NCBI RefSeq assembly: GCF_008000895.1
Contig: NZ_CP042823.1
Span: forward strand, 4,133,001 to 4,197,000
Length of the DNA stretch: 64,000 nucleotides
Source of the DNA: Methylobacterium sp. WL1
GTDB lineage: Bacteria > Pseudomonadota > Alphaproteobacteria > Rhizobiales > Beijerinckiaceae
Direction of reading: 5' to 3'
Of this stretch, positions 33,579 through 51,122 are shown piece after piece (positions within the stretch are counted from its first letter, which is position 1; each line of letters starts with the position of its first letter). Both the position numbers and the translations under genes were made by a program. A model generated the notes under the pieces. It was given only the letters and a program-made list of their open reading frames with translations, searched no databases and was not told the DNA's origin.

Positions 33579-35336
33579 TCAGCCCCCGAGCACGTGCCGC
33601 AGCTGCTGCGTGTAGCGCGCGCACGATCGTCGATGACGACCGACTTCGAGCGGATCGTGCGCGCCCTCCCCCGCCATGTCCGCAGCGCCGAGTTGGAAGG
33701 CGAGGTAACAGGGCGTCAGGACGGCAAGGAGTTCGGGGTCGACCGGGTACCCGCCCACGCGTTCCACGATCGTGGCGAGGTGCCCTTGCGCGTCCTCCGG
33801 AAGCGGGAGTTCGACGGCCGCTCCGACGATGTCCCAGGCGATGTCCTGGCACCCCACGAGATCGTGGGCGGCATGGTGGTCGAGGGCGTCGCATTTCAGC
33901 AGGCCGCCATCGGGTCGGACCAGGAATTCCCAGGGTTGCATCCGGCCATCGATCTCGACCGGACGCGCGCGGTCGGCGAGCAAGGCCATGCGGGATCCGG
34001 CCATGCGGGGTCCGACCCAGGCGTCGAGCCGTTCGGCCCAGTCCGGCCCGAGGGCCTCGCCGACGTTGTGTCGCGCCATCGCGACGAGTTCGCTCAGGCG
34101 TGCGCCGCGTTCCGGCCCGCTCGGGAAATGTCGGGCCCGGAAGCCGAGGTAGCGACCGACCCAGTCGATGAGCGCGCCTGGCGCCACGGGGCCGAGATCG
34201 AGGGGCCGGCCATCCGCGACCCAGCGCTCGACGAGGAAGCCGTGGCGATACCCTGCGACCGGCGGCGTGAACCCGGCCGCGTGCAGGGCGCGGGCGCGGT
34301 CGAGCTTCGCGCGGCCGGCGGGGCCGAGACCGGCGAACTTGAGGTGCCAGAGCGTGCCGCCCGCCCGGAGCAGGAATTTCCGCTTCTCCTGTTGCGCATT
34401 GACGGGCGGCCACGCATCCGCGCCGCGGCCCTGGAACGCGCGCCAGCGCCCGCCCGAGATCTCGATCGGGGGCGCCTGCACGGGGCCGACCAGATCGGCC
34501 ACCCAGGACGCGAGCCCGCCATTGGCCAGCACCACATCCCCGAACGGAACGGTGTGGCGCGTCGCGCGCCGCCAGCGTGCCTGGTCCCGTTCGGTCGCTT
34601 GCGGTCCCGGCGTCCCCGTGTGGCTCGGGAACAGGGTAAGCCGATCCTCGGCGATCCCGAGATGCGCGAGGGTGTCCATGACCGCGCCGAACGAACTTCC
34701 GGACAGGCCCGGTCCCTCGTCGACGATCGCGAATCCCGCCGGGTCGCCCGCGGTCAAGGCTGCCGCGAAGGCACCGTCCAGGGCCAACGCACGCCGGAAC
34801 GGGTGGCCGACGGGGCGCACCGTCCGCAGGTCGGACGATCCGAGGCCGGCCGCCACCATGGCGCCGAGGGGGACCCCGATGCTGCGGATGCCGACGACGC
34901 GGGTGGTCGCGGCCAGGGCGGCCCCCGCCGCGGCTATCGCGTAGCTCTCAGGATAGAGCGCGTAGAAGGCGAAGCCTTCGGCCCAGCGCGTGGTGATGCG
35001 CGCGGGCAGCCGCGTCGCGGCCAGGGCGGACAGGTCCGGGGTGCCGGGCGGCGTTCCGAACCCCGTCCGCCACGAGTCCCAGACCGATCGGGCAAGGTCC
35101 AACAGCAGCGCGGTCGTGGCGTCTCGGGCGGGGCAGGCCAAGTCCCGGCCGTGATCGTGGAACGTCGCGTCGGCGATCCCCTGCGCGAGTTCCCCGGCCT
35201 CGATCAGGGCGGCGACCCGGGCGCCGTGCCGGCGGATGCCGGGCGGCTCCTCCGCCACGGCGCGCAGCAGGGTCGCCAGCGTGGCGAGCCGGTCGCGGGG
35301 ATCGCCGGTCCGGCTCGCCTTACCGTAGACCAGCAC
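33579..35336 (-). CDS. Phosphoribosyltransferase-like / kinase-like fusion protein
   Basis: A 585-aa protein of unknown function. The N-terminal half (about 1-290) resembles a phosphoribosyltransferase: VVGIRSIGVPLGAMVAAG and the PRPP-loop-like FAIVDEGPGLSGSSFGAV. The C-terminal half (about 310-560) resembles an aminoglycoside phosphotransferase or lipopolysaccharide kinase fold (KFLLRAGGTLWHLKFAG; PWEFLVRPDGGLLKCDALDH; GCQDIAWDIVGAAVE), but the usual HxDxxxxN catalytic loop is not evident. It is the last gene of the large glycan cluster, starting with GTG 9 bases after the glycosidase stop. A role in modifying or activating a sugar is inferred from context only. Confidence 0.65.
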   Translation of the reverse strand: MLVYGKASRTGDPRDRLATLATLLRAVAEEPPGIRRHGARVAALIEAGELAQGIADATFHDHGRDLACPARDATTALLLDLARSVWDSWRTGFGTPPGTPDLSALAATRLPARITTRWAEGFAFYALYPESYAIAAAGAALAATTRVVGIRSIGVPLGAMVAAGLGSSDLRTVRPVGHPFRRALALDGAFAAALTAGDPAGFAIVDEGPGLSGSSFGAVMDTLAHLGIAEDRLTLFPSHTGTPGPQATERDQARWRRATRHTVPFGDVVLANGGLASWVADLVGPVQAPPIEISGGRWRAFQGRGADAWPPVNAQQEKRKFLLRAGGTLWHLKFAGLGPAGRAKLDRARALHAAGFTPPVAGYRHGFLVERWVADGRPLDLGPVAPGALIDWVGRYLGFRARHFPSGPERGARLSELVAMARHNVGEALGPDWAERLDAWVGPRMAGSRMALLADRARPVEIDGRMQPWEFLVRPDGGLLKCDALDHHAAHDLVGCQDIAWDIVGAAVELPLPEDAQGHLATIVERVGGYPVDPELLAVLTPCYLAFQLGAADMAGEGAHDPLEVGRHRRSCARYTQQLRHVLGG

Positions 35337-35345
35337 GGCTGCCGC

Positions 35346-36245
35346 TCATCCGGCGCGCGCCGGTGCGTAGCGGCGCACCATGTCGGCGCAGAACGCGGCG
35401 AACTCCGCGGGCTCCTGCGGCGCGCTGGTGTGATGGGGTGCGATGCCGCGATGCTCCGGGGTGAAGCAGAAGGTCACGGTGACGTCGAAATCGCGCAGCG
35501 CGTCCATCTGCCGGTCGAACCAGTCGAGGGCGTTCGGCCGGAAGCTGTCGGCCCAGGACAGGCCCGTGCGCAGATAGGTCACGCCGAGGCGCTTCATCCA
35601 GGCCACCGCATCGTCCAGGCGGTGATCCTCGAAGTGGAACCACTGGCAGAGCCCGAGGGCCGGGGTGTGCTTGGCGAAAGCCGCGAGCGCGAGCTTCGGC
35701 GTGCCGTCCTGGCGCAGCAGGCCCATGTGGAAGTGCCGGTAGTAGGACGAGCCCTCCGCCTCCCGGTGGCGGGTGGTCGCCTCCCACTCGCGGGGCAGAT
35801 CGTAGAGGCTGTACCAGTGGATGCGCGGCGCGCGCCCGATCAGCAGTTCGGCGGTGCGGGCGAGCCCCCAGGCCTGCACCTCCTCAGCTCCGAAGGTCGA
35901 GACGCCGACTTCCGAGACCCAGATCGGCAGCGGCGTGACGGCGCGGATCTCCGCGATCTTCTGCGGCCATTCGTGGATCTGCCAGAGGTTCCAGTCGAGC
36001 GGGAAGCCGTGCACCGCGACCGCGTCCACCGCATCGAGGACGCCCTGGCTCTCCATGCGGCGGATGAAGAGCGGGTCGATCGGCGAGATGCCGCCGAGGA
36101 CCCGCGGCACGCTCGGATTGACGGCGTGGATCGCCTCGCCGGCCGCCTTCGCCATGGCGCCGAAGCGCAACCAGTCGGGATCGATCTCGGGGTCCCAGTG
36201 CGATTTGTTGTTCGGCTCGTTCCAGAGCATCACCGCTTCGATCAC
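35346..36245 (-). CDS. GH39-like glycoside hydrolase (beta-xylosidase type)
   Basis: A 299-aa clan GH-A (TIM-barrel) protein. The acid/base Glu lies in MLWNEPNNKSHWDPE and the nucleophile Glu in IWVSEVGVSTFG, with HWYSLYDLP following. Cytoplasmic: no signal peptide. The GTG start at 36245 overlaps the stop of the methyltransferase gene (GTGA), so translation is coupled. The frame is open much further upstream, but there it only shadows the methyltransferase gene. Within this cluster it may trim or transglycosylate a glycan precursor rather than degrade food polysaccharide. Confidence 0.75.
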   Translation of the reverse strand: MIEAVMLWNEPNNKSHWDPEIDPDWLRFGAMAKAAGEAIHAVNPSVPRVLGGISPIDPLFIRRMESQGVLDAVDAVAVHGFPLDWNLWQIHEWPQKIAEIRAVTPLPIWVSEVGVSTFGAEEVQAWGLARTAELLIGRAPRIHWYSLYDLPREWEATTRHREAEGSSYYRHFHMGLLRQDGTPKLALAAFAKHTPALGLCQWFHFEDHRLDDAVAWMKRLGVTYLRTGLSWADSFRPNALDWFDRQMDALRDFDVTVTFCFTPEHRGIAPHHTSAPQEPAEFAAFCADMVRRYAPARAG

Positions 36246-37045
36246 AGGTGGGAATCCTCGGCTGTCGGGGAATCGGGCCGCGGGCCGGGTGCCGGCGCCG
36301 GGTGGACGGCACCGGCGCCCGGCGGAAGGGGCGCGCAGCGGCAGACGTAGACCTCCTCCTCCGGGTGGGCGGCGATCGCGAAGCCGCTCGCGCGCAGCAT
36401 CGCCTCGGTGCAGGCCCGGTTGGGGACCCACCAGTTGGTCCAGTCGTTCGCGTAGCGATGCTCGATGAAGTGCAGCTTCGGGTAGCCGGGCTCGGCGAAA
36501 TGGCCGACATCCCAGAAATCGTAATTCTCGGCGACCGGAGCGATGTCCGGCGCCCCGCGCTGCATGGACTGGAACACGAGCAGGTCGCGGGCCGCGTGCG
36601 TGCGGATCAGGTCCAGGGCCAGGAGCGGGTGGCGCAGGTGGTAGAGCACGCCCATGAACAGCACGACGTCGAAGCGTTCGCCGAGCGCCCCGACATCGTA
36701 GACCGAGAGGTTGCGGAACTCGATGTCCTGGCCGGTCCGCGCGGCGGCGAAGCGGGCCTGTTCCAGGTAGCGCGCGTCGGAATCCAGACCGAGCACCCGC
36801 GCGGCGCCGCGGCGCTTCATCTCGATGGCGTAGAAGCCGCCGTTGCAGCCGATGTCCAGCACGCTCTTGCCGGTGAGATCGGCCGGGATCGCGTCGGCGA
36901 AGCGCCGCCATTTCACCCGCGGGTAATCCCCCAGGAAATGGTTCGGCGCGGTCGGCACGCCGTCGAGCTCGATGTTGTGGAACCAGTCCCCCAGCGCGTC
37001 GATCTCGCGGCGCAGGATGGCGTTCTCCTCGGCCAGGCTCATCAT
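36242..37045 (-). CDS. SAM-dependent methyltransferase, Rta_06860-like family
   Basis: A 267-aa class I methyltransferase. The SAM site is VLDIGCNGGFYAIEMKRRGA, with the acidic loop VLGLDSD and the post-motif LFMGVLYHLRHPLLALDLI. The N-terminal helix ENAILRREIDALGDWFHNIEL precedes it. As far as I recall, this matches the TIGR04290 family (named from Ramlibacter tataouinensis), which is associated with oligosaccharide-type gene clusters. It probably O-methylates a sugar or cyclitol. The two consecutive Met codons leave the start at 37045 or 37042. Its 3' end is rich in Pro and overlaps the glycosidase start. Confidence 0.8.
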   Translation of the reverse strand: MMSLAEENAILRREIDALGDWFHNIELDGVPTAPNHFLGDYPRVKWRRFADAIPADLTGKSVLDIGCNGGFYAIEMKRRGAARVLGLDSDARYLEQARFAAARTGQDIEFRNLSVYDVGALGERFDVVLFMGVLYHLRHPLLALDLIRTHAARDLLVFQSMQRGAPDIAPVAENYDFWDVGHFAEPGYPKLHFIEHRYANDWTNWWVPNRACTEAMLRASGFAIAAHPEEEVYVCRCAPLPPGAGAVHPAPAPGPRPDSPTAEDSHL

Positions 37046-37062
37046 CAGGCTTCCTCCGGGCG

Positions 37063-37857
37063 TCAGGGGATGGACAGCGCGCAGGCTTTCGCGGCGGGCT
37101 CGCCGAGGGAGAGGCGTCCGGGTCCTCCGGTCCGCTCGGCCTCGCCGAGGAGCGCGATGGCGGCGCGATACCCGTCGAGGGTACCGGCATCGACGTAGGA
37201 TCGTCCGGCCCGGATCCCCCGCGCCTGCCCGCCCCCGGCCAGGTAGGCGTTGACCAGGGTGCCGACATAGTCGTCGGCGCAGCCCCGCGACTGCCAGAGC
37301 GCGTGCAGCGCGCCGAGGGTTCGCCCCGGCATCTTGAAGGCCCCCCAGATCCAGCGGGAGGTGGCATCGCTGCGCTTCACCTGGATCTCCGTGATCCGGT
37401 CCTGCGCATCCAGGACGACCGCGTCGAAGCGTTCAGGCCGATCCACGGGGAAGAGCAGGAACGAGAGGATCGCGTCCGGAAGCGTCGTCAGGGCGTCTTC
37501 CGGAAACCAGATCGTGTCGGGAAGCCCCACGATCACCGGCTCGTCGGGGCCGATCAGCGGAAGGGCACGGAACACCGCGTCGCACAGCCCGCTCGCCCGC
37601 GGCTGAACCACGTAGGCGATCGGAACGCTGCCGTAGCCGGCGCCGTAATACTCGACGATGTCGGACTTGCCCGGTGCGATCACGAAGCAGATCCGCGTGA
37701 CCCCCGCGCGCAGCATCCGCTCCACCAGGTATTCGCTCACGGCGCAGGGGCGTGCCGCGCCCTCGCGCAGGCGGCTTCCGACCGGCAGCAGCTCCTTCGA
37801 GAAGGCAAGGGGCTGGATGCGGCTGCCCAGGCCCGCCGCCGGCACGATTCCCCACAT
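37063..37857 (-). CDS. NDP-sugar nucleotidyltransferase
   Basis: A 264-aa GT-A-fold nucleotidyltransferase like glucose-1-phosphate thymidylyl- or uridylyltransferase. The signature is MWGIVPAAGLGSRIQPLAFSKELLPVG, which holds the G-x-G-x-R and the catalytic Lys, then GLCDAVFRAL and LPDTIWFPEDAL. The Mg-binding Asp lies in GLPDT, and SYVDAGTLDGY closes the site. It would activate a sugar-1-phosphate for the glycosyltransferases in the cluster. The ATG at 37857 starts 2 bases after the stop of the upstream glycosyltransferase. Confidence 0.85.
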   Translation of the reverse strand: MWGIVPAAGLGSRIQPLAFSKELLPVGSRLREGAARPCAVSEYLVERMLRAGVTRICFVIAPGKSDIVEYYGAGYGSVPIAYVVQPRASGLCDAVFRALPLIGPDEPVIVGLPDTIWFPEDALTTLPDAILSFLLFPVDRPERFDAVVLDAQDRITEIQVKRSDATSRWIWGAFKMPGRTLGALHALWQSRGCADDYVGTLVNAYLAGGGQARGIRAGRSYVDAGTLDGYRAAIALLGEAERTGGPGRLSLGEPAAKACALSIP

Positions 37858-37859
37858 GC

Positions 37860-38975
37860 TCAAGGCTCCGCGCTGAGTTCGGGCTGGCGCGCATCGACGG
37901 CGGATGCGCATCCGGGCAGGTCCGCGAGGATCCGCTCGAGGGCATCGACCCGCCGGGCCGCGGTGTGATCGGTCAGGGTCCGGTCGCGGCCCGCCTCCGC
38001 GACCCGCCGGAGTTCGGTATCGGTGAGGTCCATGGCGGCGCAGACGTCGTCCGCGTCGCGCGCGATCAGGATCTCCGCGCCGGGCCGGTAGAAGGCATCG
38101 AGCCCGGCCCAGTCGTCGCTCAGCACGGCGGCGCCGCAGGCCGCGGCCTCGAACACCCGGCCGGACGGGCACCACCCCGTCTCGGCCATGGCGGCCCGCG
38201 TCACGTTGAGCGTGAGCCGCGAGGAGGAGAAGAAGGCAGCGTGCTCCTCGGGGACGACGTGATGCACGAAGTGGATGTTCGGCCCCCAGGGGAAGTCCGC
38301 GGGGTATTGCGCCCCGCCGATCAGGAAGCGGCGCTCCGGACGGCGCCGGGCCGGCTCGACGAGGAGGTCCGCGACGCCGGCCTGCCGGTCGGCCGCGTAG
38401 GTCCCGAGATAGGAGAGGTCCGAACGGTAGCGCACGATGGCGGCCGCGGGGCGGTGCACGGCGGGGTCGACATGCCCGTAGAGCGGCGCCACCCGGCCTG
38501 CCCCGAGCTCGTCCCGCAGGGCGGTCAGGGCGCGGCCGCCGGTGTAGCTCAGCACGAGGTCGAAGCCGGCCAGACCGTCGGGCCCGATATACGAGACCGC
38601 CTCGCCGCGCCGCAGGCGCGCCAGCGTCACGGGCGTGTCGAGGTCGTAGAAGACGCGCTTCGCCCGAGAGGCGTTGAGCACGAGATCGGTGGCCGCACCC
38701 GCGTCCGGGCAATAGGACGTCACCATGGCGACATCCGCGTCGGCCAGCTCGCGCGCCGCGCGGGCCTCGACCGCACTCCAGGCCTCGAACAGGACGAGCT
38801 GGCCGCCTGGCAGCGCGGCGAGGTCGCGATGCGCGCGGTAATACGGCACGTCGCGCTCGAAGAAGACGACGTGATGCCCGCGTTCCGCCATGGCGCGGCA
38901 GAGGCCCCGCCACAGGGTCGCATGACCGTTGCCCCAGGCGGAGCTGACGGTGAGTCCGAAGACGATCAGCTTCAT
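37860..38975 (-). CDS. CgeB-like glycosyltransferase (paralogue 1)
   Basis: A 371-aa GT-B glycosyltransferase of the CgeB/DUF3880 type. The N-terminus is MKLIVFGLTVSSAWGNGHAT, followed by FYDLDTPVTLARL, FDLVLSYTGG, SYLGTYAADRQ and the donor-site LNVTRAAMAETGWCPSGRVF with EAAACGAAVLSD. It closely parallels the gene at 41809, so both descend from a duplication. In Bacillus CgeB is involved in spore-surface maturation; here the acceptor is unknown. The ATG at 38975 lies 7 bases from the upstream phosphatase gene. Confidence 0.85.
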   Translation of the reverse strand: MKLIVFGLTVSSAWGNGHATLWRGLCRAMAERGHHVVFFERDVPYYRAHRDLAALPGGQLVLFEAWSAVEARAARELADADVAMVTSYCPDAGAATDLVLNASRAKRVFYDLDTPVTLARLRRGEAVSYIGPDGLAGFDLVLSYTGGRALTALRDELGAGRVAPLYGHVDPAVHRPAAAIVRYRSDLSYLGTYAADRQAGVADLLVEPARRRPERRFLIGGAQYPADFPWGPNIHFVHHVVPEEHAAFFSSSRLTLNVTRAAMAETGWCPSGRVFEAAACGAAVLSDDWAGLDAFYRPGAEILIARDADDVCAAMDLTDTELRRVAEAGRDRTLTDHTAARRVDALERILADLPGCASAVDARQPELSAEP

Positions 38976-38982
38976 CGTGGCC

Positions 38983-39567
38983 TCATGCGATGGCCGGTTG
39001 CTCGTTCAGGCCGAGGAGGCGCCCGCCCCCCGGCCAGAGTTCCACGAGGCTCAGCGAGCCGGGATCGACCGCGATCCGGTCGTAGGCGTCGAGGGACAGC
39101 CCGAGGACCGTCACGAGGGCCGCCCGAATCACGTCGCAGTGGCTCACCAGCACGCAGGTCCCGCTGAGCCGCTCGAGGAGCCCGAGGATGCGGCCCTGCG
39201 CCTCCGCCATGCTCTCCCCGCCCGGCGTACGGGCCGTCGCACGCGCCTCGTTCCAGCACCGCCAGAGCGGGTCGTCCGCGAGGTCCGCGAAGCTGCGGCC
39301 GGTCCAGTCGCCGAACGCGATCTCGTTGAGTTCCGGCGCGACGGCGATCGGCCGGCCCAGGCGAGCCGCGATGGGCTCGGCGGTCTCCAGGGCGCGCCGC
39401 TGCGGGCTGGACAGGATTTCGGTGGCGCCGGAGCCCGCGAGCCGGCCGGCCAGCGCCGCCGCCTCGGCGTGGCCGCGTGCACCGAGCGCAACACCGGGCA
39501 TCCGCCCGCACAGGACCCCGTGCACGCGGTCGTGCGAGGCGTGGCGCACGAGGTAGGCCCGGGTCAC
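38983..39567 (-). CDS. Histidine phosphatase (phosphoglycerate mutase-like)
   Basis: A 194-aa branch-1 histidine phosphatase. The catalytic signature is YLVRHASHD (His of RHG/RHA type), the proton donor is the Glu in [12 protein letters not shown], and the second His is in [10 protein letters not shown]. The third residue of the canonical RHG is Ala. It overlaps the inositol-phosphate synthase gene by GTGA and starts with GTG, so the two are translated together. A phosphatase next to this synthase suggests it dephosphorylates inositol-1-phosphate or a sugar phosphate of the pathway; that is inference. Confidence 0.8.
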
Positions 39568-40676
39568 GTCGGCTCCGGCGACCCGGACGGCTCCGGATCG
39601 GGCAGGCCGGCGATGAAGCGGAGCGCCCGCTCCCGCGCCTCGTGATCGGTGAACTGGCGCGGCGGCGCCTTCATGAAGTAGCTCGACGGGCCGATCAGGG
39701 CGCCTCCGGTGCCACGGTCCCGGGCGAGCTTGGCGCAGCGCACGGCATCGATCACGATGCCGGCCGAGTTCGGCGAATCCCAGACTTCGAGCTTCAGCTC
39801 GATGTTGAGCGGCGTTCCGCCGAAGGCCGTGCCCTCGAGCCGGATATGCGCCCATTTGCGATCGGTGAGCCACGGCACGTGGTCGCTCGGACCGACATGG
39901 ATGTCGTGAGGGGCGAGGGGCACGTCGAGCTGGCTGGTGACGGCGCGGGTCTTCGAGAGCTTCTTCGATTCCAGCCGCTCCCGCTCCAGCATGTTCTTGA
40001 AATCGGCGTTGCCGCCGAAGTTGAGCTGGTAGGTCCGATCGAGGCGGACGCCGCGCTCGCGCAGGAGGTTGGCGAGCATCCGGTGCACGATCGTGGCGCC
40101 GACCTGGCTCTTGATGTCGTCGCCGATCAGCGGCAGCCCGCGCGCCTCGAACCGCGCCCGCCATGCCGGGTTCGAGGCGATGAAGACCGGGATGCAATTG
40201 ACCAGTGCGCAGCCCGCCCGCAGGGCGCAGTCGGCGTAGTATTCGGCGGCGCGCTCGGAGCCGACCGGCAGGTAGCAGACGAGGACGTCGGTGCGGGTCC
40301 GCTCGAGTTCCGCCGCGACGTCGATGGGCGTCTCGTCCGATTCCGGCACGTCGGCCCGCAGGTAGGTCCCGAGCCCGTCGAGCGTCGGCCCGCGCCGCAC
40401 CACGACCCCGCTCGCCGGCACGTCGGCGAAACGCTGCGTGTTGTTCGGCGGCGCGAGGATCGCATCCGCGAGGTCGCGCCCGACTTTTCCGGCGTTGATG
40501 TCGAAGGCGCAGACCACCTCGATATCGGCGACGTGATAGCCGCCGAGCGCGACGTTCATCAGCCCCGGCACGGTCTCTTCGGGGCTCGCGGCACGGTAGT
40601 AGTGCAGGCCCTGCACAAACGATGAGGCGCAGTTGCCGACGCCGACGAGGCCGACGCGTACTTTCGGTCCACCCAT
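39564..40676 (-). CDS. ino1: myo-Inositol-1-phosphate synthase
   Basis: A 370-aa NAD-dependent enzyme that converts glucose-6-phosphate to 1L-myo-inositol-1-phosphate. The prokaryotic (actinobacterial-like) short form is recognised by [45 protein letters not shown] with the catalytic Lys, [12 protein letters not shown] and [20 protein letters not shown]. Its presence indicates that the product of this cluster contains inositol or an inositol-derived unit. The ATG at 40676 is chosen because GGAGG lies just upstream; an earlier ATG at 40688 would put that ribosome site within the coding region. Confidence 0.9.
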
Positions 40677-40745
40677 CACGACCTCCACGGGCGCACTGGC
40701 ATTCGGGTTGCGGACGGCGATCGATGTTCTCCCGCGGGGGCGCCG

Positions 40746-41774: not shown

Positions 41775-41808
41775 GACGCTATCCTTTTCTGAGACCAATC
41801 TCTATTGA

Positions 41809-42936
41809 TCAGACCATCGGCGACATTTCGCCAAGTACTGGTCGCGCTGCGATGTTCCCGCGGCGGCCGGCGGCTTCGCGCAGGTGGGCCTCGAGTTCCG
41901 CGGCCCGGTGCCCGGCGCTGTGGCGCGCGAGAACCCGGGCGCGCGCGGCGTCCGCGAGCCTCCGGCGCTCGGTCTCGGGCTGCCCTTCGAGCAGGCCCAG
42001 GACCTCCCCGGCGGTCTCGACCGGCAGGATCTCGCGCCCCGGAGCCAGCACGGTCTCCAGGCCGTCCCAGCGGTCGGTGAGGATCGGCGTGCCGCAGGCG
42101 GCGGCTTCGAACAGGCGGACGCTCGGGCTGTAGCCGGCTCGGATCATGTCGGCCCGGGTCACGTTCAGCGTGTAGCGGCTCGCCGCGTAGAAGGCCGGGT
42201 GATCCCGCGGCGCGACGTGTTCGATCCGCTCGACGTTGCGCGGCCAGTCCACGGCGTCGGGATATTGCGGGCCCGCCACCACGAAGCGCAGGTGCGGGGC
42301 CTGCCGGGCCGCGTCCACGAGGAGCCGCGTCAGGGTCGGCTGCCGATCCGGGCTGTAGGTCCCGAGATAGGAGAGGTCCCAGCGCGCGTCCCGCGCCAGC
42401 GCCGGATATGCTTCGGGATCGACCGAGCAATAGAGCTGGCGCGCCGCGGGCGAGCCGTAGCGCGCCTCGATCCGGCGCAGGGTCGGACCGCCGGTGAAGG
42501 ATAGGTAGAGGTCGTAGGCGCGGATCAGGTCGGGCGTGAGATACCCGTGGTCACGGGCCTCGAGCTTCGCCAGGGTGACGGGCGTGTCGATGTCGTAGAA
42601 GGCGCAGACCGATCGGGTCCAGGCGCGGACGCGCCGGCCGGCCGCGGCACCCTCCGGCACGTAGGAGCCCACGATCACCGCGTCGGCGGCGGCGATCCGG
42701 TCGCGGAACCGTTCGAGATCCGCGAGATCGCGGTAGAAGGCGAGGTCGCAATAATCCGGGGCCGTCAGATCGCGGTGCTCGGCGTACCAGGGCACCTCGC
42801 GCTCCAGGAACAGGATCGCGTGCCCGCGCCGGGCGAAGGCCTTCAGGAGCGTCCGGTAGGTGGTGGCGTGGCCGTTGCCCCAGGACGAGGACAGGCTGAG
42901 CCCGAGGACGACGAGACGGAGCGGGGCGCCGGTCAC
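41809..42936 (-). CDS. CgeB-like glycosyltransferase (paralogue 2)
   Basis: A 375-aa GT-B glycosyltransferase, close in motif order to the gene at 37860: VLGLSLSSSWGNGHATTYR, FYDIDTPVTLAKLE, YDLYLSFTGGPT, LSYLGTYSPDRQ, LNVTRADMIRAGYSPSVRLF and EAAACGTPILTD. It would transfer a nucleotide-activated sugar in the cytoplasm. GTG start at 42936, overlapping the previous gene's stop as GTGA. A UXS-type gene follows after 34 bases. Confidence 0.85.
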   Translation of the reverse strand: MTGAPLRLVVLGLSLSSSWGNGHATTYRTLLKAFARRGHAILFLEREVPWYAEHRDLTAPDYCDLAFYRDLADLERFRDRIAAADAVIVGSYVPEGAAAGRRVRAWTRSVCAFYDIDTPVTLAKLEARDHGYLTPDLIRAYDLYLSFTGGPTLRRIEARYGSPAARQLYCSVDPEAYPALARDARWDLSYLGTYSPDRQPTLTRLLVDAARQAPHLRFVVAGPQYPDAVDWPRNVERIEHVAPRDHPAFYAASRYTLNVTRADMIRAGYSPSVRLFEAAACGTPILTDRWDGLETVLAPGREILPVETAGEVLGLLEGQPETERRRLADAARARVLARHSAGHRAAELEAHLREAAGRRGNIAARPVLGEMSPMV

Positions 42937-44027
42937 GCGACGCTCCGTTCGCGCTTGCGCGCGCAGACCGCGCGCAGGATCGCGTCGACCTCCGCGCCCC
43001 GATGCGCGTAGGTGTGTTCGCGGGTGATCCGGGCGCGGGCGGCGGCTCCGATCGAACGCGCGCGCTCGGGGGTCAGCCCGGCCACGTGGTCGGCGACGTC
43101 CTGGCCGTCGCGGGCGACCAGAACCTCCGCGCCGTCCCGGAGGAACAGCTCGAGCCCGGTCCAGGCGTCGGTGATCAGGCAGGCGCCGGCGCCCGCCGCC
43201 TCGAACACGCGGGTCGCGGGCGAGAAGCCCACCGCCGCCATGCTGTCGCGGGCGATGTTGAGCACCGCGCGCGGCGTCGTGTTGAAGGCGTTGTGCTCGC
43301 GCGTGTAGACGTGCCCGAGCGCGCGGACGTTGGCCGGCATGGCCTTGCCGTCCCAGCCGTTGCCGCCGATCAGGAAGGACCGATCCGGCAGCCGCGCCGC
43401 GGCGCCGAGGAAGAACGTCTCCACGCGCGCCTCCCGGTCCGGCAGGCGGTTGCCCAGGAAGGCGAGGTCGGCCGCGAAGCGCGGATCGGCCGGAACCGGG
43501 TGATGGGTGTCGGGATCGAGCGCGTTGTAGATCGGGATGCAGCGCGCCGCGCCGAAGCCCTCGTAGGCGGCGATCACCGGCGGACCGCCGCCATAGGTGA
43601 GAACGAGGTCCAGCGCCGGCATCGCGCGGCGCAGGGCGTGCCCCGGATCCTGCGCGATCTCGGCGAGGGTCGCGGGGGCGTCGACATCCCAGAAGATGCG
43701 GATCGCGTCGGGACGGGAGGCCGCGACGAGGCCGGCCAGCAACGCGTCGTCGAACACGCCGACGCCGCTCGCCTTCACGACCACGTCCGCCTGGGCCGCC
43801 TCCGCCACGACGGCGCGCATCGCCTCCGGCGTCGCGGGATACACGCGCACGTCGGCGTAGGGCGGCGGGTCGATGTCGCGGTGCTTCTGCCGGTCGTAGG
43901 CGTCCGGCTCGTAGAAGGTGATGCGGTGGCCGCGCGCCGCGAGGTCCCGCAGCAGGCCGCGGTAATACGTGGCCGCGCCGTTCCAGTAGGAGGAGAGCAG
44001 GCTCGATCCGTAGAAAGCGATCCTCAT
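42933..44027 (-). CDS. CgeB-like glycosyltransferase (paralogue 3)
   Basis: A 364-aa GT-B glycosyltransferase of the CgeB type. It begins MRIAFYGSSLLSSYWNGAAT and shows FWDVDAPATLAEI, LDLVLTYGGGPPVI, LAFLGNRLPDREARV, LNIARDSMAAVGFSPATRVF and EAAGAGACLITD. The domain plan is the same as paralogues 1 and 2, but it is more distant. The ATG overlaps the preceding stop (ATGA at 44024-44027) and has GGAGAGG upstream. Confidence 0.85.
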   Translation of the reverse strand: MRIAFYGSSLLSSYWNGAATYYRGLLRDLAARGHRITFYEPDAYDRQKHRDIDPPPYADVRVYPATPEAMRAVVAEAAQADVVVKASGVGVFDDALLAGLVAASRPDAIRIFWDVDAPATLAEIAQDPGHALRRAMPALDLVLTYGGGPPVIAAYEGFGAARCIPIYNALDPDTHHPVPADPRFAADLAFLGNRLPDREARVETFFLGAAARLPDRSFLIGGNGWDGKAMPANVRALGHVYTREHNAFNTTPRAVLNIARDSMAAVGFSPATRVFEAAGAGACLITDAWTGLELFLRDGAEVLVARDGQDVADHVAGLTPERARSIGAAARARITREHTYAHRGAEVDAILRAVCARKRERSVA

Positions 44028-45136
44028 GCGCACCTCTCCTGCAGGGTTGGGGCGCGCAGCCGCTGGACGACACGCAGAAGCTCCTCGGCCCGGTGGCCGC
44101 AGGTATGACGGGCTCGGATCACCGCGAGGCCGTTCTGGACGAGGCTGCGCCGCAGTTCGGCATCGTCGCGCAGGGCGCGCAGGGCACGCTCCATCTCCGC
44201 GCCGCTGCGGGCGACGAGGTAATCCATGCCCGGCCGGAACAGGCGCTCGGCATCCTCCCAGGGCGAACAGACCAGGGGGATGCCGCAGGCCAGCGCCTCG
44301 AACACCCGGATGGTCGGAATGCCGGGCAGCCGCTCCACGTAGAAGCGGCGCGGCACGTGCACGGTGGCGCTGTGACGGGCGAACAGCGCCGGGGCGGCCG
44401 CGTTGGCGGCCCAGCCGTGATAGCGCGCGCCGTAGCGGGCGAGAGTCGCCAGGGCGGCCTCGGGATAGCGAACGCCGTAGACGTCGAGGGGCAGGCCCAC
44501 CGCCTGCGCGGGCCCGAACAGGAAGCTCTCCAGCTCGGCGCCGCGCTCGTCGTCGCCCCAGTTGCCGATCCAGACCAGACCCTGCCGCGGGCCCTCCACG
44601 ATCGGCGGATGGAACAGCCGGATATCGGCGGCCTCGTGCCAGACGAAGACCCGGTCGCCCCAGCCCCAATCGCGATACACCGCGGCCAGGGCTTCGCCGA
44701 AGGCCAGCACGCCGTCGTAGCCCGACAGATCGAAGCGCCGCATCGTCTCCGGCTCGCTGACCGCCCGGTGATGCGTGTCGTGGAACAGAAGCGTGTCGAA
44801 CGCGCCGCGCTTGCGGGCCGCGCCGAGCGCCGCGACGAGGGCGGGCGCGTTCCACTCGTGCACGATGACGAGGTCGGCCCGCGCGGCACACTCCACCGCC
44901 GGCTCGATCGCGTCGTAGATTTCGGCCTGCAGCTCCGGGTAGGCGGCCCGGAACGGCGCAAGCCCCGCCTCGCCGTGGTCGCGCAGGAGGTTCGCCAGGC
45001 TCCAGGCCCCGCGGGGCTCGAACGACTGGACCTCGTGCCCGCGCCGGATCAGCTCGCGGAGGACGCCGCGCAGGAAATGGGCGTTGCCGTGGTTCCAGCA
45101 CGCGGCGAGCGAGTGGGTGAAGTAGGCGATCCTCAT
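44024..45136 (-). CDS. CgeB-like glycosyltransferase (paralogue 4)
   Basis: A 370-aa GT-B glycosyltransferase. It begins MRIAYFTHSLAACWNHGNAH and continues with FLRGVLRELIRRGHEVQSFE, VHEWNAPALV, VWIGNWGDDERGAELESF and VFEALACGIPLVCSPWEDAE. A His-rich HDTHHRAVSEPETM segment around residue 138 is distinctive. It is translationally coupled to both neighbours by ATGA overlaps. Its sugar and acceptor are unknown. Confidence 0.85.
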   Translation of the reverse strand: MRIAYFTHSLAACWNHGNAHFLRGVLRELIRRGHEVQSFEPRGAWSLANLLRDHGEAGLAPFRAAYPELQAEIYDAIEPAVECAARADLVIVHEWNAPALVAALGAARKRGAFDTLLFHDTHHRAVSEPETMRRFDLSGYDGVLAFGEALAAVYRDWGWGDRVFVWHEAADIRLFHPPIVEGPRQGLVWIGNWGDDERGAELESFLFGPAQAVGLPLDVYGVRYPEAALATLARYGARYHGWAANAAAPALFARHSATVHVPRRFYVERLPGIPTIRVFEALACGIPLVCSPWEDAERLFRPGMDYLVARSGAEMERALRALRDDAELRRSLVQNGLAVIRARHTCGHRAEELLRVVQRLRAPTLQERCA

Positions 45137-46281
45137 GCGGCCGCTCCCTGTCGGGCGGCGCGAATCCCGGGGCCGGCGCGGAGCGCCTCGAACACGTCGA
45201 GGACGGAAGCCGTCGCGGCGGCGACCGTGTAGCGACCCGCCCGTTCCTGCGCCGCCCGCCCGAGGCGCGCACGCCGGTCCGGGTCGGTCGCGAGGCCATC
45301 CAGCAGGCCGGCGACCGCGTCCGCGTCGTCGGCCTCGACGAACAGGGCGGCATCCGCCCACACTTCCCGGAAGGTCGGCAGGTCCGACAGCACGAGGGCA
45401 CAGCCGGCCTGGGCCGCCTCCAGGACGGCGAGGCCGAACGGCTCGTAGCGGGCCAGCGAGACGAAGATCGGTCGCCCGGAGAGTTCCGCCGCGATGCCGG
45501 CCTCGTCGAGTTCGCCCAGAACCGTGAGGTGGACCGGCCGGACGCGCTCGCCGTTGGGGCCCGTCACCGGACCGGCCGCCCGCACCGGCAGGGCGGTCCT
45601 GGCCGCGACGCGGTCGAGACCGGCGCAGTTCTTGGCCCGGTCCCACAACCGGCCGGCCGTGAAGGCGAAGGGCACCGGATCGGTGCCGGGGGAAGCGACG
45701 GAAGCCAGATCAGGGGCCAGCTGCCGCCGACCGTTGTGGACGGCCCTCGGCGGCCGGGACAGACCGGCGCGGGCCGTCGCGTCCGCGAACGCCCGGCTCG
45801 GAGCCAGGAGCGCGTCGGCGCGGCGGCACCCGCGTGCGACGAGTTCCGCCCGCCACGCCAGATCCCCGGGGAGCGGCCCGGTCCCGGCCGCCGCCCACCA
45901 GGTCGCTACGCAGGAATGGCAGACCGCGACGACGGGCACCGGGAAGTCCGCAGCCGCCGCGAAGGCGGGGCTGTGCAGGTGGACGAGATCGGCCCCGACC
46001 GCGCGGGCCGTCCGCGCCAGCGCTTCGCCGGCCCCCGTCACCGCGCCGGGATCCGTCGCCATCCAGTCGAGGGGCAGCCCGGTCCTGACGAGGCGGCACC
46101 CGGCGTCTTCGGCACGTGCGGCCTGCGCCGCGGACGGGTCCGGACCGAGCACGGCGAGCGTCACGCCGACACCGGCTTCGACGAGCCCCCCGGCGAGGTC
46201 GACCGCGTAGGACCAGACGCCGCCGACGGCGTCGGCGGTCATCAGGACGTGGAAGCGCTGCCGCGTCAGGTCCGTCCGCAT
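45133..46281 (-). CDS. GT4-family glycosyltransferase
   Basis: A 382-aa retaining GT-B glycosyltransferase of family 4. Evidence is the N-terminal VLMTADAVGGVWSYAVDLAGGL with acceptor-loop glycines, ADLVHLHSPAFAAAADFPVP, FTAGRLWDRAKNCAGLD and the donor-binding ARYEPFGLAVLEAAQAGCAL, with the EX7E-type pattern. It has no membrane segment. The start overlaps the radical SAM gene's end by 16 bases, and its stop overlaps the next gene by ATGA. Confidence 0.85.
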   Translation of the reverse strand: MRTDLTRQRFHVLMTADAVGGVWSYAVDLAGGLVEAGVGVTLAVLGPDPSAAQAARAEDAGCRLVRTGLPLDWMATDPGAVTGAGEALARTARAVGADLVHLHSPAFAAAADFPVPVVAVCHSCVATWWAAAGTGPLPGDLAWRAELVARGCRRADALLAPSRAFADATARAGLSRPPRAVHNGRRQLAPDLASVASPGTDPVPFAFTAGRLWDRAKNCAGLDRVAARTALPVRAAGPVTGPNGERVRPVHLTVLGELDEAGIAAELSGRPIFVSLARYEPFGLAVLEAAQAGCALVLSDLPTFREVWADAALFVEADDADAVAGLLDGLATDPDRRARLGRAAQERAGRYTVAAATASVLDVFEALRAGPGIRAARQGAAA

Positions 46282-47558
46282 GCCGCCTCCAGTTCGCGAA
46301 GCGTCAGCGGCCGCTCGTCCTGGATGTCGCTGAACGCGTCGAAGAGGCCGAGGTAATGGGCGTGCGCCCGCTCCCAGGCCGCATCGTCCGGCTCGCCCCA
46401 GAGGCGCCGGTAATCGGGGGAGCTGGGATAGGGGTAGAGCGGCACGGGATCGTTCGCCCAGACGCCCCGCCCGCGCAGGCGATCGCGCCACTGCGCCACC
46501 ATCGCGGGGTCGTCGCCCGCGACCTTGATCAGGTTCGCCTGCACGAACGGCACGGTCCTGCGGGCGTGGATCAGCCGCTCTGCGAGTTCGTCGGTGGTGG
46601 CGCGGCACTTCTTGTCGAGGGCGGCCCGGCCCTCGACCGTCAGGCTCTCGATGCCGGCCTCGATCGAGACGCATCCGGCCGCCCCGAGCAGATCCAGCAT
46701 GTCCGGCTTCCACAGGTCGATCCGGGTCTGGATGCCGAAGCGCAGGTCGCGCGCGACCAGGGCTTCGAGGAGCGGCTTCTGGGGCAGGAAGATCTCGTCG
46801 ATGAAGTAGACGTAGGTGACGCCCTGGGCGATCAGCCCGTCGATCTCGGCGAGGACGGGTTCGAGATCGCGCCGGCGATACGCGTCGCGAAAGTCGATCT
46901 TCGCGCAGAAACTGCAGGTATACGGGCAGCCTCGCGAGGCCTCGACCTCGGCGCCGGGACCGTCGGGCTCCCGGTCGAAGCGGTGGTGGTGGTGGGTGTG
47001 GCGCGCGATCCACTCCGCCGGCCAGCGCAGTGCCGGGGCATCGCTGAACCTGGCCGCGTGCGGGCCCCCGGTAATCCGCACGCCGTCGTCGTCGCGGTAG
47101 GCGATCGACGGCACGCTCCGGAGCTCCTGCGCCTGTGCGAGACGCAGGACGATCTCCTCGCACTCTCCGCGCACGACCGCGTCGACGTCGAGCTTCTCCA
47201 GGGTCGGGCGCGGGGTCGCCGAGCCGTGCGGTCCGACCGCGACCGTGCGGCCTCCGCGCCCGGCGAGGGCGTCCAGGAAGGCGCGCGGCACCCGCAATTC
47301 CGGTGGGGCGCAGCGCCAGAACAGGTAGGTCGGCGCGGTCGTCACCACGGTCATGTCGGCGCCGAACGCCGCGACCTTCTCGGCGGCCTGCGCGTGCGTG
47401 AGCCGGCAGAGGTGCGCATCGAGCATCAGCACGTCGTGGCCCGCGGCGGTCAGGAGCGCGGCGCTGTAGCCGAGTTCGAGCGCGAGATGGGGCTCGCGGC
47501 AGCCGAAATAGATGCTGTTGCGGTAATCCCAGGCGGGATTGACGAGGGCGACCTTCAT
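46266..47558 (-). CDS. B12-binding-domain radical SAM protein
   Basis: A 430-aa radical SAM enzyme. The N-terminal part (about 1-150) is a cobalamin-binding-like Rossmann domain (MKVALVNPAWDYRNSIYFG; LGYSAALLTAAGHDVLMLDA) without a clear DxHxxG cobalamin motif. The [4Fe-4S] site is EASRGCPYTCSFCAKIDF (C-x3-C-x2-C), followed by VYFIDEIFLPQ and SIEAGIESLT. As far as I recall it matches TIGR04295, a family tied to the same clusters as the TIGR04290 methyltransferase. A chemically difficult methylation, epimerisation or C-C bond step on the glycan is likely. ATGA overlap with the upstream epimerase. Confidence 0.85.
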   Translation of the reverse strand: MKVALVNPAWDYRNSIYFGCREPHLALELGYSAALLTAAGHDVLMLDAHLCRLTHAQAAEKVAAFGADMTVVTTAPTYLFWRCAPPELRVPRAFLDALAGRGGRTVAVGPHGSATPRPTLEKLDVDAVVRGECEEIVLRLAQAQELRSVPSIAYRDDDGVRITGGPHAARFSDAPALRWPAEWIARHTHHHHRFDREPDGPGAEVEASRGCPYTCSFCAKIDFRDAYRRRDLEPVLAEIDGLIAQGVTYVYFIDEIFLPQKPLLEALVARDLRFGIQTRIDLWKPDMLDLLGAAGCVSIEAGIESLTVEGRAALDKKCRATTDELAERLIHARRTVPFVQANLIKVAGDDPAMVAQWRDRLRGRGVWANDPVPLYPYPSSPDYRRLWGEPDDAAWERAHAHYLGLFDAFSDIQDERPLTLRELEAACGRT

Positions 47559-48664
47559 CCGGCCGCTCCCATCAGAGGCCTGTCCCGATCGCGCAGGCCG
47601 TGGGTCGCGCCGCCGTCCCGTTCCTGGGTGAGCCAGGCGGCGAGATCGGCCACGCCCTGCCGCCACGGCATCGGGGCCGGAAGGCCGAGGATCGCGGCGG
47701 CGCGGCGCGTGTCGGACACGTAGTAGCGCTGGTCGCCGGCGCGCCACTCCGAGAAGCGGTGATCGACCGGGCGCCCCACGAGCGTCTCGATATGGGCGAG
47801 GACCTGGCGCAGGCTCACGGCATTGTCCGGACCGCCGCCGAGGTTGAAGGCCTGGCCGGCGATGCTCTCGATCCGCGCCCAGGCCGCCCGGTAGGCCGTG
47901 ACCGCGTCCGAGACGTGCAGGATGTCGCGGACCTGCCGCCCGTCCCCGTAGATGCTGATGGGCCGGCCCGCGAGGGCGCTGATCAGGAAATGTGCGACCC
48001 AGCCCTGGTCCTCGGTGCCCATCTGGCGCGGGCCATAGATGCAGCTCATCCGCAGGACCGCGGTCGGGATGCCGAAGCTGCGGGCGTAGTCGAGGACGTA
48101 CTGGTCGGCGCCACCCTTCGAGCAGCCGTAGGGCGTGTGGAAATCGAGGGGCTGGCGCTCCGCGATGCCCCAGCGCCTGATCTCGGGATCGGCGGGGACG
48201 TAGGCGTCGTTCGCGGCGGTCACCGGCAGATCGGGCAGGTTGCCGTAGACCTTGTTGGTCGACGCGAAGACGAAAGGCACCCGCCGCGCGCGCGCGGCTT
48301 CGAGCACCGTGATCGTGCCGCCGAGATTGACCGTGAAATCCTCTCGCGGCGCGACGAGGCTCGTGGTCACGGCGACCTGGGCCGCGAGGTGGAAGACGAC
48401 ATCCGCCTCGGCCACGCAATCCGCGACCAGGTCCGCATCGCGAACGTCGCCGGTCACCGCCGTCAGAGCGGCGGGATGGCGCTCTACCAGCCAGGCCAGG
48501 TTCGCCGCGACGCCCGGGCGCGCCAGGGTGTCGAGGACGACGACGCGGTGTCCGGCCGAGGCCAGGCTGTCGGCGAGGTTCGCACCGATGAAGCCGGCGC
48601 CGCCGGTGATCAGGACGCTGCAGCCGGCCGGGTCGCCCGGCGGACGGGGGCGGGCCGCCGTCAC
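47555..48664 (-). CDS. NAD-dependent sugar epimerase, CDP-paratose 2-epimerase-like
   Basis: A 369-aa extended SDR. The sequence shows SVLITGGAGFIGANLADSLA, FHLAAQVAVTTSL, FASTNKVYGNLPDLPV, PYGCSKGGADQYVLDYARSF with the Tyr-x3-Lys pair, and SCIYGPRQMGTEDQGWVAHF. This last pattern is characteristic of CDP-tyvelose/CDP-paratose 2-epimerase-like enzymes. The true substrate is probably another NDP-sugar. GTG start at 48664 overlapping the stop of the upstream gene (GTGA). Confidence 0.85.
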   Translation of the reverse strand: MTAARPRPPGDPAGCSVLITGGAGFIGANLADSLASAGHRVVVLDTLARPGVAANLAWLVERHPAALTAVTGDVRDADLVADCVAEADVVFHLAAQVAVTTSLVAPREDFTVNLGGTITVLEAARARRVPFVFASTNKVYGNLPDLPVTAANDAYVPADPEIRRWGIAERQPLDFHTPYGCSKGGADQYVLDYARSFGIPTAVLRMSCIYGPRQMGTEDQGWVAHFLISALAGRPISIYGDGRQVRDILHVSDAVTAYRAAWARIESIAGQAFNLGGGPDNAVSLRQVLAHIETLVGRPVDHRFSEWRAGDQRYYVSDTRRAAAILGLPAPMPWRQGVADLAAWLTQERDGGATHGLRDRDRPLMGAAG

Positions 48665-49788
48665 GCGACGAGCCCCCGGGCTTCGAGTTCCCGGCGGGCC
48701 TCGGTCACGCGGTCGACGGCCTGCTGCTCGGCGACCCAGGCCGCCAGTTCGGCGACCCCGTCGGCGAAATCGCGCTGCGGGGCGAAGCCCAGGTCCCGCT
48801 GGATCCGACCGATGTCGGCGATGCAGTGCCGGATGTCGCCCGTCCGGGCCTGGGCGATGATCTCCGGCGCGAGATGCGGCTTGCCCATGGCCCGCGCGAG
48901 GATCTCGGCGACCTCGCGGACCGACCGGTCCCGGCCGCTCCCGACATTGTAGACGTTCCCGGGTGCCCGCGGGTGCTCGAGCGCCAGCACGAAGGCCTCG
49001 GCCACGTCCTCGACATGGACGAAGTCGCGGCGCTGCTCGCCGTCCTCGAAGATCATCGGCGGCTGCCCGTTGTGCAGCCGCGCGGCGAAGATCGCGAGGA
49101 CGCCCGTGTAGGGGTTCGAGAGCGCCTGCCCCGGCCCGTAGACGTTCCAGAGCCGCAGGGCGACGCCTTCCATGCCGTAGACCGGGCTGAGCGTCAGGGT
49201 CAGGCGCTCCTGCACGTACTTGGTCAGGGCGTAGACCGACGCTAGGGTCGGGGCCTTCCACTCGGGGGTCGGCACGGGCACGAGCGGATGCCCTTGCGCA
49301 TCCACCGGGTCCCAGGGCTCGCCCGGGCGCCTCGGCCCGCGCACCGCGTCCTGGACGATGCTGCCGTCCCCGGCCCGGTAGAGACCCTCGCCGTAGATGC
49401 TCATCGAGGAGGCGACAACCACGCGTCGCACCGGCCGGTCGATGAGCTGCTGGAACAGTGCGGCGGTGCCGCAATCGTTGACCGAGACGTACCGCTCGAC
49501 CGCGTACATGCTCTGGCCGACGCCGACCTCGGCGGCGAGGTGTACGATCGCGCCCACACCGTCCAGGGCTCGTATCAAAGCGGCTGCGTCGCGGACGTCG
49601 CCCTCGATGAACTCGACCTCGTGCGGCAACCGTTTCGGTTCTGCTTCCGTCCCGTGAACCTGCTCGATCAGGCTGTCGAGGACACGGACCCTGTAGTTGC
49701 GGGTCAGCAGCGCGCGCGCCAGATGGGATCCGATGAAACCGGCGCCGCCGGTGATGAGGACGGTCTCTCTCAAACGCGCTGCCTCCAT
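48661..49788 (-). CDS. NAD-dependent sugar epimerase/dehydratase, first gene of the glycan cluster
   Basis: A 375-aa extended SDR with VLITGGAGFIGSHLARALL, VHLAAEVGVGQSMY, SSMSIYGEGLY, ASVYALTKYVQERL (Tyr-x3-Lys) and RLWNVYGPGQALSNPYTGVL. An insertion of about 40 residues after the catalytic Ser region (VRGPRRPGEPWDP) is typical of a subgroup of dTDP-glucose dehydratase/UDP-galactose epimerase-like proteins. The ATG at 49788 is chosen because GGAGG-like CATGGAGGC surrounds it and homology begins there. It heads a 15-gene minus-strand array. Confidence 0.85.
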   Translation of the reverse strand: MEAARLRETVLITGGAGFIGSHLARALLTRNYRVRVLDSLIEQVHGTEAEPKRLPHEVEFIEGDVRDAAALIRALDGVGAIVHLAAEVGVGQSMYAVERYVSVNDCGTAALFQQLIDRPVRRVVVASSMSIYGEGLYRAGDGSIVQDAVRGPRRPGEPWDPVDAQGHPLVPVPTPEWKAPTLASVYALTKYVQERLTLTLSPVYGMEGVALRLWNVYGPGQALSNPYTGVLAIFAARLHNGQPPMIFEDGEQRRDFVHVEDVAEAFVLALEHPRAPGNVYNVGSGRDRSVREVAEILARAMGKPHLAPEIIAQARTGDIRHCIADIGRIQRDLGFAPQRDFADGVAELAAWVAEQQAVDRVTEARRELEARGLVA

Positions 49789-50336: not shown

Positions 50337-51122
50337 ATGCAGGACGACGATAGGACGAATACCGGTGGCGGTGCGAAGCCTCCCGCCGGGGCAACGAACA
50401 ATCCTCTGATCGCGAAGCTCGAGAGCTTGGCCAAGCTCTCGGCGGAGGACAAGGACGTGCTGCAGCGGATCAGCGCGAACCCGCAGGTCATCGAGCCCGG
50501 GACCGCCCTGATCCGGGAGGGTGACAAACCGGACGGCGTCTACCTGATCCTCGACGGCATCGCCTGCCGCTACAAGCTCCGGGCGAGCGGCGCGCGCCAG
50601 ATCATGGCCTACCTGGTTCCGGGCGATTACTGCGACCTCGACGTGGCGCTGCTGAAGGCCATGGACCATGCGATCGGCACGCTCTCCACGTGTCACGTGG
50701 TGCGGATCGACCTCCTCACCATCCAGGGCCTGCTCGAACGCCATCCCGGCATCACTCACGCCCTGCGGCTGGCGACCCTGGTGGACGAGGCGACCCTGCG
50801 CGAATGGCTGGTCAACATCGGCCGCCGCTCCGCGGACGAGCGCATCGCGCATCTGCTCTGCGAATTGCTGTTGCGGCTGCGCGCCGTCGGCCGCACGGCC
50901 GGCCAGGGCCAGAGCTACGCGCTTCCGGTCACCCAGGATGATCTGGCCGACACCACCGGGCTGGCCGCCGTGCACGTCAACCGCGTCCTGATCAACCTGC
51001 AGCGGCGCGGCCTGATCGCGTTCTCGGGGCAGCAGGTGACGATCTCGGATCTCGCGGGCCTGGAGGCGTTCGCCGAGTTCAAGCCGAACTATCTGCATCT
51101 CGGGGGGAGGGACGCGGCATGA
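50337..51122 (+). CDS. Crp/Fnr-family transcriptional regulator
   Basis: A 261-aa regulator with an N-terminal cyclic-nucleotide-binding-like beta-roll (about 35-155; VIEPGTALIREGDKPDGVYLI, MAYLVPGDYCDLD) and a C-terminal winged helix (about 170-240; LPVTQDDLADTTGLAAVHVN, RVLINLQRRGLI). It lacks the N-terminal Cys cluster of Fnr, so it does not bind an Fe-S cluster in that way. It is divergent from the glycan cluster and could regulate it. Its stop overlaps the next gene (ATGA at 51119-51122). Confidence 0.88.
   Translation: MQDDDRTNTGGGAKPPAGATNNPLIAKLESLAKLSAEDKDVLQRISANPQVIEPGTALIREGDKPDGVYLILDGIACRYKLRASGARQIMAYLVPGDYCDLDVALLKAMDHAIGTLSTCHVVRIDLLTIQGLLERHPGITHALRLATLVDEATLREWLVNIGRRSADERIAHLLCELLLRLRAVGRTAGQGQSYALPVTQDDLADTTGLAAVHVNRVLINLQRRGLIAFSGQQVTISDLAGLEAFAEFKPNYLHLGGRDAA

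Follow-up and report, generated by a model that had tools for sequence, protein, structure and literature searches.

Mycobacteria make methylmannose and methylglucose polysaccharides by pathways that combine cytoplasmic glycosyltransferases with a methyltransferase and a dedicated hydrolase and are not known to include an exporter. In mycothiol synthesis, MshA glycosylates inositol phosphate, after which a still unassigned phosphatase removes the phosphate. A third system is represented by two protein families, TIGR04295 and TIGR04290, which NCBI curators keep as hypothetical equivalogs; the cassette that they mark presumably carries the curator label "rhizo-twelve system", for which we found no paper. 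Here we describe a cluster of fifteen minus-strand genes, named A to O from upstream to downstream, at positions 33579–49788 of a 64,000-nucleotide stretch (hereafter the window) of the 6.25-Mb genome of Methylobacterium sp. WL1.

The cluster matches the third of these systems, in that the products of C and M score above the curated cut-offs of the two families (718 bits against 400 for TIGR04295, and 382 against 300 for TIGR04290) and the twelve genes widely shared in Methylobacterium (A–J, M and N) are all present, whereas K, L and O are extra here. Searches of open-licence papers listed none that describes this cassette by title or abstract start, and none under the marker family names, and the locus appears to be a widely inherited oligosaccharide cassette so far represented by hypothetical families only. 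It resembles the methylmannose and methylglucose pathways in the features given above but adds a UDP-xylose synthase (UXS), a C2-epimerase, a radical SAM enzyme and an inositol-phosphate synthase (Ino1); with the mycothiol pathway it shares an Ino1 beside an MSMEG_4193-like phosphatase, but its Ino1, phosphatase and glycosyltransferase all fall below the curated cut-offs. What is new is a permuted glycosidase with a fused canonical relative, a modular and replaceable inositol supply, and a stress-promoter link in many lineages, though not in all. The reading that we favour, while rating it a little short of an even call, is that the cassette directs the synthesis, in the cytoplasm, of a small methylated hetero-oligosaccharide that is soluble and acts chiefly as a stress protectant; the product probably contains xylose and, here, also inositol. 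Somewhat more doubtful is the broader proposal that a widespread alphaproteobacterial general-stress pathway yields an intracellular protectant of a new class, a methylated oligosaccharide with an inositol cap and pentose units that carries a sugar made by a radical SAM enzyme, and whose chain length is kept by a permuted glycosidase with an epimerase-fused, unpermuted ancestor.

The gene cluster and its co-inheritance

A preliminary description of this locus, made from the sequence alone, had proposed fifteen minus-strand genes of named families, most of them joined by ATGA or GTGA overlaps. All fifteen frames are present without internal stops, and their families were matched by Pfam, NCBIfam and PDB sequence searches. 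The overlaps hold for 8 of the 14 junctions, where start and stop share 4 bp (before B, C, E, F, G, J, L and N), while the junction before D is a 16-bp overlap and the remaining five are gaps of 7–57 bp. The genes are as follows.

A, 48661..49788, minus strand: SDR-type nucleotide-sugar epimerase/dehydratase, 375 aa (PF01370; nearest PDB relatives mixed epimerases and dehydratases, best 153 bits)
B, 47555..48664, minus strand: predicted C2-epimerase of the CDP-tyvelose/paratose type, 369 aa (PDB relatives)
C, 46266..47558, minus strand: cobalamin-binding radical SAM enzyme, TIGR04295 (B12_rSAM_oligo)
D, 45133..46281, minus strand: GT4 glycosyltransferase, 382 aa (PF13439 and PF00534)
E, 44024..45136, minus strand: CgeB-like glycosyltransferase (PF13524, 1.7e-34)
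F, 42933..44027, minus strand: CgeB-like glycosyltransferase (PF13524, 4.6e-37)
G, 41809..42936, minus strand: CgeB-like glycosyltransferase (PF13524, 2.5e-39)
H, 40746..41774, minus strand: predicted UDP-glucuronate decarboxylase, that is, UXS (PDB relatives)
I, 39564..40688, minus strand, with an alternative start at ATG 40676: inositol-phosphate synthase, cassette copy of a mycothiol-like subtype (PF01658; TIGR03450 536.3 bits, below the cut-off of 638)
J, 38983..39567, minus strand: histidine phosphatase, MSMEG_4193/CobC-like (PF00300; TIGR03848 153.7 bits, below the cut-off of 203.85)
K, 37860..38975, minus strand: CgeB-like glycosyltransferase, accessory (PF13524, 1.4e-39)
L, 37063..37863, minus strand: sugar-1-phosphate nucleotidyltransferase-like protein, accessory (PF00483; RmlA/GalU relatives, best 36 bits)
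M, 36242..37045, minus strand: SAM methyltransferase, TIGR04290 (meth_Rta_06860)
N, 35346..36245, minus strand: GH39-like TIM barrel, circularly permuted (Glu10 of WNEPN and Glu112 invariant)
O, 33579..35336, minus strand: phosphoribosyltransferase-like N-terminal half (by motif only) and C-terminal half with a choline-kinase/aminoglycoside-phosphotransferase fold, accessory (no Pfam match at E 0.05)

Among solved structures, the closest relatives of B were CDP-tyvelose 2-epimerases (247 and 236 bits, with the next family at 126), and its alignment keeps the STNKVYG and PYGCSKGxADQY stretches, placing B in the CDP-tyvelose/paratose 2-epimerase family. H was likewise closest to UXS (359 bits, next family 146) and its alignment keeps the catalytic stretch STSEVYGDPxVHPQ...RACYDEGKR; together with the PF01658 and TIGR03450 matches of I, this agrees with the earlier assignment of these two genes as UXS and Ino1. 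The cluster cysteines of C (C211, C215 and C218) were invariant in 9 of 9 aligned rows.

To follow the gene set in other genomes, we used a one-genome-per-species collection, in which 269 places encode a relative of C (tblastn, E 1e-3), and examined the best 80. Judged from the organism names, we take all 80 to be Alphaproteobacteria; their titles include Mesorhizobium, Azospirillum and Methylobacterium as well as plant- and soil-associated organisms, the first row being Methylobacterium crusticola at 87%. By tblastn, the 80 loci held A in 77, B in 75, C in 80, D in 79, E in 77, F in 68, G in 65 and H in 47; since the loci were picked by C and many flanks end before the far genes, the counts for the later genes are lower bounds, with at least 55 loci holding I, 51 J, 24 K, 11 L, 42 M, 40 N and 29 O. 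F is the best conserved glycosyltransferase of the set by mean identity (73%). The same genes are clustered in Methylobacterium, Mesorhizobium, Azospirillum, Sphingomonas, Acetobacteraceae and others, with the core order retained across many families, and they fall into two modules, A–H and I-J-(K-L)-M-N, the second of which is divergent from the first in Azospirillum, Acetobacteraceae, Sphingomonas and one Caulobacteraceae bin. The core consists of A–H, M and the GH39-like barrel, Ino1 and the phosphatase form a frequent but non-universal module, and K, L and O, which the preliminary description had counted as members of the set and which are indeed present in the window, are accessory.

Because loci picked by C carry a linkage bias, we turned to whole-genome counts. 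Among 111 genus members, the source genome included, C was found in 45 and M in 42 (41 of these above the cut-off); 41 had both, four had C only (G356, G379, G394 and G010), one had M only (G383) and 65 had neither. Among 289 sampled members of the class, C was found in 13 and M in 14, with 13 having both, none C only, one M only and 275 neither; in the M-only genome (G197), of 83% completeness, E-F-G-M-H starts at a contig edge. Fisher tests of this co-occurrence, in which kinship is ignored, gave p = 1.3e-24 for the genus and 1.2e-21 for the class. N matched 12 of the 289 class genomes, each of which is one of the 13 that carry C. The genes A–E, F, M and N are dispersed in the congeners G023, G014 and G019 and yet all found, in the latter two on separate contigs, and J adjoins M in G023 and G019; of the congeners lacking C, G009 and G018 also lack M, N and F, and G001, G003, G005 and G007 also lack F. 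We conclude that the fifteen-gene set is a real, co-inherited cassette. The dedicated, co-conserved pathway of the preliminary description thus survived a check of gene-set co-occurrence, whereas the permutation of N, its fused form, the stress motifs and the 2-epimerase family of B had gone unseen in it.

Several irregular copies were also recorded. The match to glycosyltransferase E is split in two in L043, L050, L066, L034 and L035, with about 200 extra bases between E residues 183 and 184 in the last two. Lower-scoring, divergent or partial copies lie at G349:C3:209713-210855 and C23:228530-228838, at G394:C1:418249-418935 and at L030:7978-8286; in both G349 and G394, C is matched by separate pieces that share a single stop-free frame, and M is partial in G349 (below the cut-off) and in G010. 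A gene with a Cas1 domain lies near the cassette at L124:1147-2979.

Gene N and its fused relative

The GH39-like hydrolase named in the preliminary description is among the more weakly matched of the fifteen genes. N scored 17.3 bits against PF11790, below the cut-off of 21, and departs from the canonical strand order of clan GH-A; its barrel model and its pair of glutamates nonetheless match the clan. Clan GH-A enzymes carry their catalytic glutamates after strands 4 and 7, and in N both E10, within WNEPN, and E112 were invariant in 30 of 30 aligned sequences. The aligned chains open some 8 residues ahead of the WNEPN acid/base, and presumed strands 1 to 3 come last. This start is not an artefact of how the sequences were cut, because stop-to-stop frames of 311, 320, 323 and 315 aa in G207, G265, G023 and G035 leave no upstream room for strands 1 to 3. 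In an AlphaFold model (predicted local distance difference test 82, predicted template-modelling score 0.85), residues 1–298 match whole barrels.

Six of the 12 class-sample genomes with N had one stretch covering the whole model and six had partial matches only, four of the latter with a second stretch in reverse order. In all six of the genomes with partial matches, which come from four families (G093, G222 and G320, which belong to one genus, and G075, G219 and G155), both barrel halves stand in canonical order and are fused to the N-terminus of B. These fusions, each of about 680 aa and made up of a GH39-like barrel and a CDP-tyvelose-2-epimerase-like domain, lie at:

L124:13420-15477
L125:4210-6250
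L126:13160-15211
L127:11700-13742
L128:4914-7001
L129:11137-13167

The best 25 NCBIfam matches to the L124 fusion cover the epimerase part almost alone. Profile comparison paired the front of N with the rear of the fused barrel (E 3.5e-32, 37% identity) and the rear of N with its front (E 6.5e-15, 33% identity), while the other four half-pairings gave E values of 0.05 or worse with a probability of at most 1.1%, and both glutamates are retained in the permuted and the fused forms. We therefore take N to be a naturally circularly permuted GH39-like barrel, predicted to start at strand 4 and to end after strand 3. As a start at strand 1 is the rule for such barrels, we infer that the canonical fused form is the older. 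An unpermuted, fused relative of N occurs in versions of the same cassette, which makes this a clear natural instance of circular permutation among barrel enzymes.

Proposed product, its location and the inositol supply

Starting from the gene families, their co-inheritance, the permutation of N and the promoter motifs observed in relatives, we infer the reactions, the nature and location of the product, and its role along the following lines. UDP-glucuronate from the genome's UDP-sugar dehydrogenases would be converted by H to UDP-xylose, and A and B, the latter by C2-epimerization, would supply an additional one or two uncommon nucleotide sugars, while C would modify a carbon of a sugar through a radical reaction. 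In lineages bearing Ino1, I would make inositol phosphate, a glycosyltransferase (perhaps D) would glycosylate it, and J would remove the phosphate, in parallel with mycothiol synthesis. E, F and G, and K where present, would lengthen the chain, M would add an O-methyl cap, and N, as an intracellular permuted glycosidase, would trim or transglycosylate it; L and O may decorate the chain in some species.

The location of the product bears on whether the cassette could instead make a surface or exported glycan (an exopolysaccharide, an O-chain side chain or a glycolipid head group) with transporters encoded elsewhere, which we consider unlikely. The many glycosyltransferases and nucleotide-sugar enzymes would suit such a product, as would the plant- and soil-associated hosts and the scattered transporter matches in the flanks (ABC_tran and MFS, each in 3 of 141 scanned proteins), and EcfG of Sphingomonas melonis also affects glycosyltransferase and exopolysaccharide genes (PMC6599016). 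However, none of the fifteen genes gave a Pfam match to an initiating polyprenyl-phosphate transferase, flippase, polymerase, exporter or acyltransferase, in keeping with the earlier remark that no flippase, polymerase or exporter is present, and a crude Kyte-Doolittle scan found no 19-residue stretch above 1.77 in any of the fifteen proteins, all of which look soluble. We also collected 151 open reading frames (ORFs) of 130–900 aa within 6 kb of 31 loci (141 scanned, 5 more in an earlier scan and 5 long ones unscanned). Among the best 25 of the 170 families matched, none was found in more than the 4 of 141 proteins reached by TctC, which makes an exporter hidden in these flanks unlikely. The fusion of a glycosidase domain to the nucleotide-sugar epimerase B suggests, moreover, that the glycosidase is cytoplasmic. 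Given the lack of membrane segments, the lack of a recurrent flank transporter and this fusion, the evidence favours cytoplasmic synthesis of a soluble product, although the product may yet leave the cell by general export machinery. Three ORF clusters (c12, c14 and c32) are probably antisense artefacts of ORF calling. In Dankookia, a gene for a PIG-L type deacetylase (L070:369-1154) adjoins L and K, and the same gene cluster is found in L073 (Roseicella) and L082 (a Methylobacteriaceae bin).

An inositol-containing product, as first proposed, fits the Ino1 gene carried here, but this gene, found in at least 55 of the 80 loci, is not universal in the cassette. Depending on the lineage, the cassette holds one of two Ino1 subtypes, at differing positions, with 77–80% likeness within the second subtype and 52–59% between the two; the other Ino1 of the source genome (G000:C2:5716498-5716815, L001) is very different, only 23–31% identical to the cassette copies over the aligned parts. 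It seems that a dedicated source of inositol phosphate has been recruited more than once, and this, since the subtypes occur in different lineages, suggests that inositol phosphate itself is under selection. I and J are nearest to TIGR03450 and TIGR03848, the latter of which we take to be a mycothiol-associated family, and a mycothiol-like decoration of a cofactor or low-molecular-weight thiol, or else glycosylation of a protein or hopanoid, could be entertained on this ground. We regard it as very improbable, as Ino1 (536.3 against 638), the phosphatase (153.7 against 203.85) and D compared with MshA (23.3 against 462.5) all fall below their cut-offs, no ligase family is among the Pfam matches of the set, and cassettes at six class loci are without Ino1.

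The EcfG promoter motif and the stress reading

The published EcfG motif is GGAAC-N17-20-GTT, and in S. melonis the topoisomerase IB and catalase genes are EcfG-dependent (PMC6599016). In an initial scan with spacers of N15–18, which covered up to 400 bp before A in 76 regions, 35 held a motif, whereas mononucleotide shuffling predicted 1.46. We then scanned for GGAAC-N16-18-GTT within 250 bp of the first genes (A, I or J) and found it upstream of 61 of 135 first genes, compared with 4 of 728 internal genes and 3 of 129 regions lying 500–750 bp upstream; leaving out Mesorhizobium, the figures were 25 of 99 first genes and 4 of 548 internal ones. In Mesorhizobium the motif precedes both transcription units (A in 19 of 19, I in 17 of 17). 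Sorted into 31 lineage groups under our own labels (L058 and L132, on the same contig, were counted twice and are both negative), it occurs in at least one locus of 13. Topoisomerase IB genes lie inside the cassette span in L070, L124 and L128. In many relatives, then, the cassette is apparently under the EcfG/PhyR general stress response, a link that by this motif evidence would extend to many lineages, not all, and that gives the molecule a testable role and an induction condition under which to find it. A gene for an ECF sigma factor that matches PhyR_sigma2 adjoins A in L124, although the motif is absent from that locus.

Several observations weigh against a cytoplasmic stress protectant. 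No EcfG motif lies within 400 bp upstream of A in this window; 14 of the 15 near relatives L025–L039, nearly all congeners, are without it, L033 alone having it; and for gene A it was found in 0 of 5 Methylorubrum, 0 of 8 Azospirillum, 0 of 7 M. aquaticum-clade loci and 3 of 11 other Methylobacterium, with 18 of the 31 groups negative overall. It also stands on the opposite strand in 31 of 135 first-gene regions, which we ascribe to putative promoters of divergent neighbours, precedes only 2 of 72 other unit-first genes, and was compared with an internal-gene control that is mostly coding DNA. As to the product, H was found in only 47 of the 80 loci (many flanks end), I and J were not found in the 19.5 kb read at the six fused-glycosidase class loci, the remaining genome not having been searched, and besides the ABC and MFS matches above, a weakly ABC-membrane-like protein (22.8 bits against 28) recurs in three loci.

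The motif also bears on whether the cassette could be a specialized-metabolite cluster making a pseudo-oligosaccharide, such as an aminocyclitol-like or signal molecule. Ino1, cobalamin radical SAM and kinase or nucleotidyltransferase genes together recall aminocyclitol clusters, and the fold of the C-terminal half of O, the patchy distribution in the genus (45 of 111) and the PIG-L deacetylase adjoining L in L070 are consistent with that view. Against it stand the retention of the core order across many families and the spread of the general-stress motif over lineage groups, and the Pfam matches of the set include no aminotransferase or efflux family; we judge it less probable than an exported glycan, though not as remote as a mycothiol-like role. 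The stress-protectant oligosaccharide is the reading that we retain.

Several other genes surround the cassette. Directly upstream of A lies a divergent gene for a Crp/Fnr-family regulator (window 50337-51122), a candidate local regulator in this species. Nearby are genes for a Nudix/NrtR-like repressor (window 30318-31070; NCBIfam 161 bits against a cut-off of 400), an SDR oxidoreductase (31880-32737) and a catalase-domain protein (25770-26825). In L124 and L125 the cassette is also flanked by SDRs, which belong to the same Pfam family as the one in the window.

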